This document shows, in pieces, positions 21,206 to 23,787 of a stretch of DNA of 64,000 bases (within the stretch, counting starts at the first letter, position 1; every line of letters begins with the position of its first letter). Source of the stretch: Halomonas huangheensis (lineage in GTDB: Bacteria > Pseudomonadota > Gammaproteobacteria > Pseudomonadales > Halomonadaceae); contig NZ_CP013106.1 of assembly GCF_001431725.1 (NCBI RefSeq), positions 3,534,001 through 3,598,000 on the forward strand, given 5' to 3'. The notes beneath the pieces were generated by a model. That model was given only the letters and a program-made list of their open reading frames with translations. It had not been told where the DNA came from and made no database searches. A program made the position numbers and the translations under genes.

Positions 21206-21231
21206 TGTCAGGAATCCTTTCACGGGTCGAC
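21206..21231 (+). promoter_or_regulatory. ECF-type promoter of the buf operon (predicted)
   Basis: TGTCAGGA (21206-21213), 14 nt, then CGAC (21228-21231). The same two-part pattern occurs before the DUF3047 gene (TGTAAGGA-N14-CGAC) and the phosphotransferase gene (N15). An ECF sigma gene is present in the window. The bufA ATG is about 59 nt downstream of the -10. Confidence 0.55.
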
Positions 21232-21289
21232 ACAAGAGAGGCAGCACATGACGAGCTGCTTCACTTTAGTGACCATGAGGATCTACCAC

Positions 21290-21571
21290 ATGAAACGTTC
21301 AATGATGATGGCCGCCGTACTGTCCACAGCCATGGCCCAGGCGGGAGTGGCTTCCAGTGCCTTTGCAGATGAGCATGAAGCCATGGAAAAGTGCTACGGC
21401 GTGTCCCTCGCCGGTGAGAATGACTGCAAGGCCGGTCCCGGCACCACCTGCGCAGGCACTTCCAGCGTCGATTACCAGGGCAACGCCTGGACACTGGTTC
21501 CTGAGGGTAGCTGCACCAGCATCGAGACTCCGCACGGCAACGGCAGTCTGAGCGAAATCGAGCGTCCTTGA
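21290..21571 (+). CDS. bufA: bufferin-type RiPP precursor (DUF2282)
   Basis: A 93-residue exported peptide precursor. An N-terminal signal peptide (about 1-27, cleavage after SSAFA) is followed by the DUF2282 core with four cysteines: C35 (EKCYGVSLAG), C46 (ENDCKAG), C54 (TTCAGTSS) and C75 (EGSCTSIETPHG). In characterised bufferins, some of these cysteines are oxidatively modified by the partner DUF692 enzyme, and the peptide binds copper. The same role is inferred here. GAGG 9 nt upstream supports the ATG at 21290. An in-frame ATG at 21248 with AGAGAGG would give an atypical longer leader. The bufB start is 82 bp downstream. Confidence 0.88.
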   Translation: MKRSMMMAAVLSTAMAQAGVASSAFADEHEAMEKCYGVSLAGENDCKAGPGTTCAGTSSVDYQGNAWTLVPEGSCTSIETPHGNGSLSEIERP

Positions 21572-21652
21572 TCGCAAGCCGGTCGCCGCTGGTCACATCG
21601 TATGCCCAACACGATGTGACCAACGCCTGTCTTTCTTCGATGCTGGAATTCC

Positions 21653-22555
21653 ATGGCCATGACTCAAATACACTGCAATCGTCCTGACCAGGCCCTCGGC
21701 GCTATCGGCATCGGCCTCAAGCATCAGCATGCCGAGACTCTGCTCGAGATCGACCGGGGCCCGGATTTCCTTGAGCTGCATGCCGAGAACTACATGAATG
21801 CCGGTGGTCCTGCACAGGAGCGCCTGCAGGCTTTAGCAAGACGTTATCCCTTGTCAGTGCATGGTGTTGGCATGTCGCTGGGTAGCGCCGAGGGAATCGA
21901 TACACGACACCTGGAGCGCCTCAGGCAACTGGTCGATACTCTCCGCCCGATACTGGTCTCCGAGCACCTGGCCTGGAGCCGCCTCGATGGCCACAGCTAC
22001 AACGATCTACTGCCGGTGCCTCTGACAGAAGAATCGTTGAACCTCCTGTGTGCCAACATCGACTGCGTTCAACAAAGCCTTGGGCGCCGCATTCTGGTCG
22101 AGAACCCCAGCCTCTACGTCTGCCTCGATGGAATCAATACCATCCGTGAGGTCGACTTTCTCAACCTGATCGTAGAACGCACCGGCTGTGGCCTGTTGTT
22201 CGACGTCAACAATGCCTTCATCAGTGCCTCCAACCTCGGGCGAGATCTGGGAAATTACCTTGCTGATATCCCCTGGCACGCCATTGGTGAATGGCACCTG
22301 GCAGGCCACAGCCTGGATGAGCAGGCCTCACCACCGCTCTATATCGATGACCATGGCAGCCCCGTCTCGGATGTTGTGTGGCGACTTTACCGGCAAGTCA
22401 TTCGCATGGCACCGGAAGTACCGACCCTGATCGAGTGGGACAACAATGTGCCAGCACTGGATCGCTGGCTTCAGGAGGCCGAACTGGCAAGGCGAGAACG
22501 CTGCGGAGTATTCGGCGAACGGGAATCCAGATCCATTGCCTTGAGGGCCCTGTAA
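21653..22555 (+). CDS. bufB: DUF692 multinuclear iron oxidase (MNIO), precursor-modifying
   Basis: MbnB-family enzyme of 300 residues with a TIM-barrel fold that binds two or three irons and oxidises cysteines in a RiPP precursor. Likely metal and active-site motifs are present: GIGLKHQHAE, LELHAENYM, LSVHGVGMSLG, ILVSEHLAWS, HSYNDLLPVP, ILVENPSLY, LLFDVNNAFISASN, EWHLAGH, IDDHGSPV and TLIEWDN. The target is the DUF2282 peptide encoded directly upstream, and the DUF2063 partner starts at the stop codon (TAATG). Two ATGs lie at the start; the first is used. Confidence 0.93.
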   Translation: MAMTQIHCNRPDQALGAIGIGLKHQHAETLLEIDRGPDFLELHAENYMNAGGPAQERLQALARRYPLSVHGVGMSLGSAEGIDTRHLERLRQLVDTLRPILVSEHLAWSRLDGHSYNDLLPVPLTEESLNLLCANIDCVQQSLGRRILVENPSLYVCLDGINTIREVDFLNLIVERTGCGLLFDVNNAFISASNLGRDLGNYLADIPWHAIGEWHLAGHSLDEQASPPLYIDDHGSPVSDVVWRLYRQVIRMAPEVPTLIEWDNNVPALDRWLQEAELARRERCGVFGERESRSIALRAL

Positions 22556-23307
22556 TGAGTCAACTCGCCAACTGGCAGAAACGCTTCATCGACGCGATAC
22601 AGCAACCGGGAGATGCGGCTACCGACCTTGGTCAACGTAGCGGTCTGGATGTCTACCGCAACAACATTCGGACCAGCTTGATCGAGGCTCTCGCTGAGGC
22701 CTATCCACACACTCGCCAACTGTTGGGTGAGCGCTTCTTTTCCGGTCTGGCCAACGCCTACGTTCAACAGACCCCACCGACAGACCCACGCCTGAATCGC
22801 TACGGAGCGAATCTGGCCGAGCAACTCGACAGTTTGCCCAGTCTCAATCGCTATCGCTTTGTTGCCGATATCTGCCGCCTCGAACGTGCTCGATTGGAGG
22901 TCAGTCATGCCGATGAAGCTTCTGCCCTGACGGTTGAACAATTGGCAACGATCGACATCGAGTCGCGGCATGTGGCGCCGGTCCCCGCCAGCCGCTGTAT
23001 CCATTGCCGGTACGATGTCGAAGCGCTTTGGCAAAGCCTTGAACAGGGCGCGCCGGCGGCAGGCCTTGGCGATAGCGGTGCGGGCTATTGGCTGGCAGTG
23101 CGTCATCACGATCGTGTGCGCCTGACACGACTGGATGGCACCGCGGCTCGGCTCTATCGAGCCCTCGACTCAGAATCAGCATTCGGCGATATCTTCGAGA
23201 ACCTGTTGACCGAACTGGACAGCACTCAAGTGCTGGGTATGGCGCTGGGCAACCTGATTGCGCTGGGTGCCCTGCGCGACGCGACGGCGCTGTCCAACGA
23301 TCATTGA
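22555..23307 (+). CDS. bufC: DUF2063 MNIO partner protein
   Basis: A 250-residue DUF2063 protein. The N-terminal helical domain (MSQLANWQKRFIDAIQQPGD, then LDVYRNNIRTSLIEALAEAYPHTRQLLGERFF) is diagnostic. In related systems this protein forms a complex with the DUF692 enzyme and helps present the precursor. The ATG overlaps the bufB stop by one base, so translation is coupled. The C-terminal half (about 140-250) is more variable and has two cysteines (RCIHCRYD) that might bind metal; that last point is inference. Confidence 0.9.
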   Translation: MSQLANWQKRFIDAIQQPGDAATDLGQRSGLDVYRNNIRTSLIEALAEAYPHTRQLLGERFFSGLANAYVQQTPPTDPRLNRYGANLAEQLDSLPSLNRYRFVADICRLERARLEVSHADEASALTVEQLATIDIESRHVAPVPASRCIHCRYDVEALWQSLEQGAPAAGLGDSGAGYWLAVRHHDRVRLTRLDGTAARLYRALDSESAFGDIFENLLTELDSTQVLGMALGNLIALGALRDATALSNDH

Positions 23308-23325
23308 CCCGTCAGGAAAGCAAAC

Positions 23326-23787
23326 ATGACCACTATCCATTGCCTGAGCGCAGCCTACCGGAATCGTCTGCTTGAAGTGCTCGACCGCTGTCCACTGGGG
23401 CCTGTGTTGTTGCTGATGCGTATCGTCATCGGCAGCGTCTTCTTTCTGTCTGCGCTGACCAAGGTTGATGGCTTCGCATTGAGCTCCAGCGCCATATATC
23501 TGTTCCGCGAAGAATATGCCTTGCCGTTGCTGCCACCAGTGATGGCCGCGTGGCTGGCAACGTCAGGCGAGTTCTCGTTTTCCCTGCTGCTCTGGGCAGG
23601 TCTTGGCACCCGACTTGCTGCACTGGGACTACTGGTGATGACCGCGGTGATCCAGACATTCGTCTATCCCGATGCCTGGGTCACCCACGGCATGTGGGCC
23701 GCATGTCTGCTGACACTGATCCTGCGTGGACCAGGTATGCTGTCACTGGATCACCTTATTGATCGACTTACGGCTCGTGATGCGTAA
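23326..23787 (+). CDS. bufD: DoxX-family membrane protein of the buf operon
   Basis: A 153-residue inner-membrane protein with four hydrophobic segments (LLLMRIVIGSVFFLSALTK; LLPPVMAAWLATSGEFSFSLLLW; LAALGLLVMTAVIQTFVY; MWAACLLTLIL). The family match is DoxX (WATHG/W-type signature seen as AWVTHGMWAA). DoxX proteins are regular fourth members of DUF2282-DUF692-DUF2063 operons, where their role is unproven; a redox or quinone-linked role is speculative. GTCAGGA is the ribosome site, 18 bp after the bufC stop. Confidence 0.9.
   Translation: MTTIHCLSAAYRNRLLEVLDRCPLGPVLLLMRIVIGSVFFLSALTKVDGFALSSSAIYLFREEYALPLLPPVMAAWLATSGEFSFSLLLWAGLGTRLAALGLLVMTAVIQTFVYPDAWVTHGMWAACLLTLILRGPGMLSLDHLIDRLTARDA

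Follow-up and report, generated by a model that had tools for sequence, protein, structure and literature searches.

The window analyzed here, a 64,000-nucleotide stretch of the Halomonas huangheensis genome (contig NZ_CP013106.1, positions 3,534,001 to 3,598,000), contains a complete bufferin-type (buf) operon. All four genes are located on the + strand between positions 21290 and 23787 in the order bufA-bufB-bufC-doxX. The gene bufA (21290..21571) encodes a DUF2282 (Buf1) precursor of 93 amino acids (Pfam DUF2282 PF10048, 86.6 bits, cut-off 22.4); a second in-frame ATG at 21275 is also a possible start. It is followed by bufB (21653..22555), the gene of a multinuclear non-haem iron oxidative enzyme (MNIO; MbnB_TglH_ChrH, 316.2 bits, cut-off 25), and by bufC (22555..23307) for a partner protein, in which a DUF2063 domain (Pfam, 78.5 bits, cut-off 27.2) is joined to a C-terminal RRE-like domain. 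These two genes overlap in a TAATG with a shared A. The last gene, doxX (23326..23787), encodes a DoxX-family membrane protein (Pfam DoxX PF07681, 59 bits, cut-off 23.6). An initial annotation, made from the sequence alone, had named these four genes in this order with a TAATG coupling between the second and the third; the coupling is present and the gene order is borne out by Pfam matches above the cut-offs.

The MNIO is of the bufferin type; it scores 341.6 bits with the NCBIfam model MNIO_BufB NF050167 (cut-off 310). Its polar residues are invariant across an alignment of 15 sequences (A4), and its relatives in the PDB are 3bww, MbnB and TglH. BufC has the architecture of a PME type 1 partner, i.e. 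DUF2063 fused to an RRE-type domain. Its fold matches TglI and NGO1945; a sequence search of the PDB gave no match. The NCBIfam cut-offs were not reached by BufA (BufA2, 22.7 of 60), BufC (HvfC, 49 of 142) or DoxX (HvfX, 47.3 of 80). Genome searches returned one match each for MNIO and DUF2282 and no second copy of either. The biosynthetic gene set is that of an ordinary, canonical Buf1 bufferin operon.

The four cysteines of BufA occupy positions 35, 46, 54 and 75, exactly as the initial annotation had stated. The N-terminus is signal-like when read by eye: an M-K/R start and a hydrophobic Ala-rich stretch lead to an AFA/D boundary. A DUF2282 profile search detected relatives in 23 of 201 genomes of the family, the own genome included; 20 loci were fetched in full (G030, G067 and G079 were omitted). 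In all 21 precursors from these loci the four cysteines are surrounded by EKCY, NDC, CAG and G.C, as in the window. One locus (L055, from genome G078) has a tandem pair of bufA genes ahead of bufB. An alignment of 26 precursors from other genera (A3) agrees on the cysteine context; its rows were chosen by the EKCYG/NDC patterns, so that only the surroundings of C54 and C75 are an independent test. A protein search with BufA gave 7,999 of 8,000 scored candidates at E ≤ 0.001. Among the 120 matches listed, the closest named BufA relatives are Halomonas proteins; the Halomonas-named homologues are 74–86% identical and carry the label DUF2282 or, in several cases, 'BufA1 family periplasmic bufferin-type metallophore'.

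Each thiooxazole ring lowers the mass of a peptide by 4 Da, and the initial annotation had expected this loss for every modified cysteine. The legend to section 14 of Antoine et al. (2025; PMC12452194) states that in Buf1 only the two central cysteines are modified, while the first and the last form a disulfide. By this published precedent C46 and C54 of BufA would be converted into thiooxazoles and C35 and C75 would form a disulfide, with predicted shifts of −4 Da confined to C46 and C54 and of −2 Da for the disulfide. The more general statements of the initial annotation, that the enzyme family oxidizes precursor cysteines and that the product is probably exported, are supported, the latter by family precedent. 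A structure model of BufA was poor (pLDDT 60.9) and was not used.

Upstream of bufA is a predicted promoter of the extracytoplasmic function (ECF) type, TGTCAG-N16-CGAC (TGTCAGGAATCCTTTCACGGGTCGAC; 21206..21231, + strand), which ends 58 bp before the ATG. We compared this region between the window and the 20 fetched loci of its family. Twelve of these are of a Halomonas type, namely ten loci of the same genus, one of another genus (L037) and the window. The motif TGTMAG-N16-CGAC is present upstream of bufA without mismatch in 10 of the 12 and with one mismatch in the other two (L048 and L049); in shuffled upstreams it occurred exactly 10 times in 24,000 and within one mismatch 287 times. The motif is kept although, over 120 bp of upstream sequence, the Halomonas-type loci are identical to the window at just 61 to 77 positions. 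The ECF promoter of the initial annotation is in this way confirmed as more than a chance match. The motif is not found in the remaining nine loci, which belong to two other genera and have 3 or 4 mismatches. Seven of these nine (L044, L045, L047, L052, L053, L054 and L055) have a third ECF-like promoter, GCATCC-N16-CGTA, ahead of bufA; the sigma profile found no matching open reading frame (ORF) in the fetched stretches of these seven loci.

A different promoter prevails in Buf1 loci of other genera (L099-L178), which are the best 80 of at least 587 confirmed loci and were picked by the EKCYG/NDC patterns, not at random. One of them (L152) has a short upstream region and was left out of the promoter count (n=79). 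The sigmaF site GTAACC-N16-CGAA, known from Caulobacter, is exact in 31 of the 79 and present within one mismatch in 47; the corresponding numbers for shuffles are 1 and 14 in 1,580. TGTMAG-N16-CGAC is never exact in the same 79 loci and occurs once within one mismatch. An ECF match is found in the fetched stretch of 31 of the 80 loci, with 28–48 bits against the Halomonas sigma profile, compared with 362–394 bits for the 30 members of that profile itself. Eight of these ECF loci were checked for an anti-sigma factor; seven have an adjacent ORF, which is NrsF by Pfam in all seven, and beside the ECF gene of L106 no anti-sigma ORF was found. Judged by sequence, the bufA promoter in the window belongs to a class other than the sigmaF type seen elsewhere in Buf1 operons.

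The window also contains a candidate for the cognate sigma factor, and the link between the two is absent from the initial annotation. Ten sigma70_r2 matches occur in the genome, one of them in the window. This gene (33315..33920, + strand), 9.5 kb downstream of the buf operon, encodes an ECF sigma factor of the TIGR02943 family (230.3 bits, cut-off 162.2) and is the proposed buf regulator. It overlaps by ATGA with a gene for a protein of 96 amino acids (33917..34207, + strand), which matches the anti-sigma families NF052368 (antisigmaE, 60.6 bits, cut-off 50) and zf-HC2 (34.4 bits, cut-off 22.2). When this protein is read from MMMCRAAT, it has Cys4, His30, Cys34 and Cys37, the same positions as reported for MseR of Neisseria meningitidis (PMC2893595). 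By these residues the sigma factor and its small putative zinc anti-sigma would form a pair of the sigmaE/MseR (zinc anti-sigma, ZAS) type.

The distribution of the sigma gene is consistent with a role in buf expression. A homologue is located directly behind doxX in 3 of the 20 related loci (L038, L039 and L049). In L038 it is followed by an antisigmaE protein and then by a gene that is HAD-like by eye; the window has a HAD-like gene of similar sequence at 35412-36125, 1.2 kb past the anti-sigma gene. Homologues at E ≤ 1e-20 are found in 90 of the 201 family genomes. Each of the 12 genomes with the Halomonas class of promoter has one, in contrast to the other 11 genomes with DUF2282, which represent two other genera and have none. 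Among the matches of the 90 genomes, 30 sigma loci were returned. TGTMAG-N15-17-CGAC is present in 18 of these 30, with 20 sites in 107 kb; from the N16 rate of the own genome (12 in 4.76 Mb), with three spacings allowed, less than one site is expected. Eight of the 30 loci have the motif ahead of their sigma gene, where it ends 61–134 bp before the sigma start. The motif also precedes a DUF3047-like ORF in four loci and a GT2-like ORF upstream of sigma in three (labels assigned by eye outside the window). A regular expression for the anti-sigma factor found a candidate in 22 of the 30. Genome G105 has a second sigma copy (contig C19:606-1202), which is 84% identical to that of the window.

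Further sites of the motif stand at methionine sulfoxide repair (Msr) genes. The own genome has 12 exact TGTMAG-N16-CGAC sites, and five of them precede fitting genes: bufA, a DUF3047 gene, and the genes of an MsrA-like protein and of an MsrA and an MsrB that both carry a signal as judged by eye. The site at the DUF3047 gene is a second one in the window (TGTAAG-N16-CGAC, 34277..34302, + strand), and the gene, which we propose to be co-regulated, lies at 34375..35043 on the same strand (Pfam DUF3047, 189.7 bits). A site before a DUF3047-like ORF is also seen by eye in L070, L071 and L090. Of three MsrA-type and three MsrB-type matches in the genome, three have a site before them, and these 3 of the 12 sites end 30–87 bp ahead of the Msr genes. 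Four of the other seven sites have no ORF of at least 80 amino acids starting within 220 bp, and three stand before ORFs with no evident link. We compared 24 genomes for the motif and Msr genes; the Msr comparison covers the 14 with complete site lists, nine with buf and sigma and five without a sigma hit. Five of the nine carry a site on the same strand as an Msr domain match and no more than 200 bp from it (three in G000, two in G105 and one each in G141, G175 and G187); the five others carry none.

From the observed genes, residues, motif and synteny we infer the modification, copper binding, sigma-promoter pairing and signal as follows. BufB, guided by BufC, would turn C46 and C54 of BufA into 5-thiooxazoles in the cytoplasm. 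The signal peptide would then export BufA, the C35-C75 disulfide would form and the product would sequester periplasmic copper; the chemistry and the copper function are in this scheme taken over from published family members. Transcription of bufA from the promoter at 21206 would depend on the ECF sigma factor of 33315-33920. The zinc anti-sigma of 96 amino acids would hold the sigma factor and release it when stress oxidizes or perturbs Cys4/His30/Cys34/Cys37. Two MsrA-type genes, one MsrB-type gene and the DUF3047 gene would also be under the control of this sigma factor. In short, we consider it probable that a canonical Buf1 operon is under the control of the MseR-like pair at 33315-34207, in a regulon shared with Msr repair. 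The regulatory difference from other Buf1 operons is well supported at the level of sequence; the pair is apart from the operon here and adjoins it in some related species.

Several observations weigh against control by this one sigma factor. The motif is not enriched in the whole genome, where 12 exact sites compare with 21 for a reversed-pattern control; because the sites are no more frequent than this control, many of them are due to chance. No TGTMAG-type site is present directly before the sigma gene in the window, and no site stands at an Msr gene in four of the nine genomes with buf and sigma (G074, G084, G115 and G139). Three of the five genomes that gave no sigma hit (G063, G119 and G133) have an exact motif beside MsrA that faces away from it; in G063 an ORF of 745 amino acids, whose own-genome counterpart is a VTT/FAD oxidoreductase, starts at this site. 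Because the motif persists at MsrA in these three genomes, another ECF factor probably reads it in some relatives. Promoter class and sigma presence both track genus, and the related loci share descent, so that the counts are not independent. Finally, the −10 element CGAC differs from the neisserial CGTCTAA. One explanation in agreement with several of these points is that the operon is as described but that another ECF factor of the genome, with its ten sigma70_r2 matches, reads the promoter at 21206, while the sigma factor of 33315 serves other genes. Two findings speak against this explanation, which we regard as unlikely: sigma homologues adjoin doxX in three related loci, and 8 of 30 sigma loci have the motif ahead of their own sigma gene.

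It is much less probable that the operon is copper-controlled through a system of the sigmaF/NrsF type. Such control would follow the example of Caulobacter, where Buf1 operons are reported to be sigmaF-controlled and induced by copper (PMC3511200, PMC8224329), and the sigmaF-type promoters in 47 of the 79 loci of other genera would fit it. However, a search of the genome for NrsF gave 0 matches, and within the 260 bp ahead of bufA no sigmaF match is better than 3 mismatches. A match with 2 mismatches at 21269-21294 was set aside; it overlaps the bufA ATG at 21290 and is one of 60 such matches within two mismatches in the whole window, where shuffles predict 29.9. Equally improbable, if not more so, is that BufA carries modifications that are new in position or in kind. 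The initial annotation had raised this prospect from the cysteine context and had suggested an alignment with known DUF2282 precursors. This alignment reveals the conserved context in BufA, kept in all 21 relatives found by the profile, and NDCKAG recurs in L115, L123, L131 and L163; in favor of a new chemistry nothing was found beyond natural variation at positions other than cysteine, such as K47. Control of a canonical operon by the sigma/anti-sigma pair of the window remains the reading that we prefer.

Some additional features were recorded around these genes. The buf operon is flanked by a gene of the RidA family (20689-21051) and a gene for a universal stress protein (Usp; 23912-24766), both on the − strand; the order RidA-buf-Usp-SulP of the window recurs in 7 of the 20 related loci. 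An N17 variant of the motif (26798..26824, + strand), possibly an autoregulatory promoter, precedes a collinear run of genes at 26853-34207. This run, perhaps one operon, comprises an APH-like gene, an ABC transporter (binding protein, permease and ATPase), GT2, DUF2064, sigma and anti-sigma. In L179-L181 the N16 form precedes what by eye is the same gene; L182 has a site without a resolved gene, and L183 and L184 have none. In L191, L192 and L193 an MsrA gene is divergent from an ORF of 733–745 amino acids, which in L193 is a fusion of a VTT domain and a pyridine-nucleotide oxidoreductase. The motif occurs in both directions in L191, only on the side of the large ORF in L192 and only on the MsrA side in L193. 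In genome G000 an exact site (C1:664960-664985, L059) ends 159 bp before the gene of an exported-looking, Cys-containing protein of 125 amino acids.

As a biosynthetic operon, the cluster is one more member of a family of thousands. A broader proposal, which we advance only tentatively, is that operons of the bufferin type make up, together with methionine sulfoxide repair, a single periplasmic stress module, which was independently adopted by unrelated ECF systems: sigmaF/NrsF in Caulobacter, TIGR02943 with a zinc anti-sigma in Halomonas and a third ECF factor acting on GCATCC-N16-CGTA in other genera of the family. In Halomonas the native signal would in that case be oxidation and not copper alone; this oxidation, by hypochlorite or driven by copper, would be sensed through a zinc thiol switch in the cytoplasm. 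Such a regulatory swap, if true, would uncouple bufferin function from the one regulator that has been studied in Caulobacter. A link to methionine sulfoxide repair that recurs under different sigma factors would point to a common physiological need, oxidative damage by copper in the periplasm, that could be tested in a halophile, beyond the pathogens studied so far.

In the literature searched, with most subscription journals and all supplements outside its scope, we found no description of a Buf1 operon controlled by a zinc anti-sigma. Antoine et al. (PMC12452194) mention no anti-sigma other than NrsF for Buf1 clusters; their main text does not contain the words Halomonas, zinc, ECF or DUF3047. 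The biosynthetic genes show no noted difference from those that NCBI labels 'BufA1 family periplasmic bufferin-type metallophore' in Halomonas. They also agree with the Buf1 operon of Caulobacter vibrioides (CC3254-CC3257) in the order DUF2282-MNIO-DUF2063-DoxX and in the proposed control by an ECF sigma factor. In Caulobacter, sigmaF is reported to control two Buf1-type operons together with MsrPQ (PMC3511200, PMC8224329), so that the sigmaF/NrsF regulon includes periplasmic methionine sulfoxide repair (YedY/MsrPQ), as we propose for Halomonas. The regulators differ: Caulobacter uses GTAACC-N16-CGAA and the six-TM NrsF, whereas the system proposed here combines TGTMAG-N16-CGAC with a TIGR02943 sigma factor and a small zinc anti-sigma. 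In this respect the Halomonas pair is similar to sigmaE/MseR of N. meningitidis (NMB2140-2145) and RpoE2/HrsE of Haemophilus influenzae, in each of which an ECF factor is combined with a small anti-sigma. Both are reported to control msrAB together with a DoxX/MNIO/DUF2063 cluster (PMC2893595, PMC3240639, PMC7907618). Gadgil et al. (PMC13097082; preprint PMC12668002) relate such clusters to general oxidative and metal stress. The −35 element is also alike; the Halomonas promoter shares GTMAG and resembles the neisserial consensus GTMAGBWTT at 8 of 9 positions. In contrast, the Neisseria and Haemophilus clusters have EGKCG-type precursors (gonophorin, oxazolin; PMC13097082) in place of DUF2282, and the neisserial sigma gene is in one operon with the cluster, while in the window the two are 9.5 kb apart.

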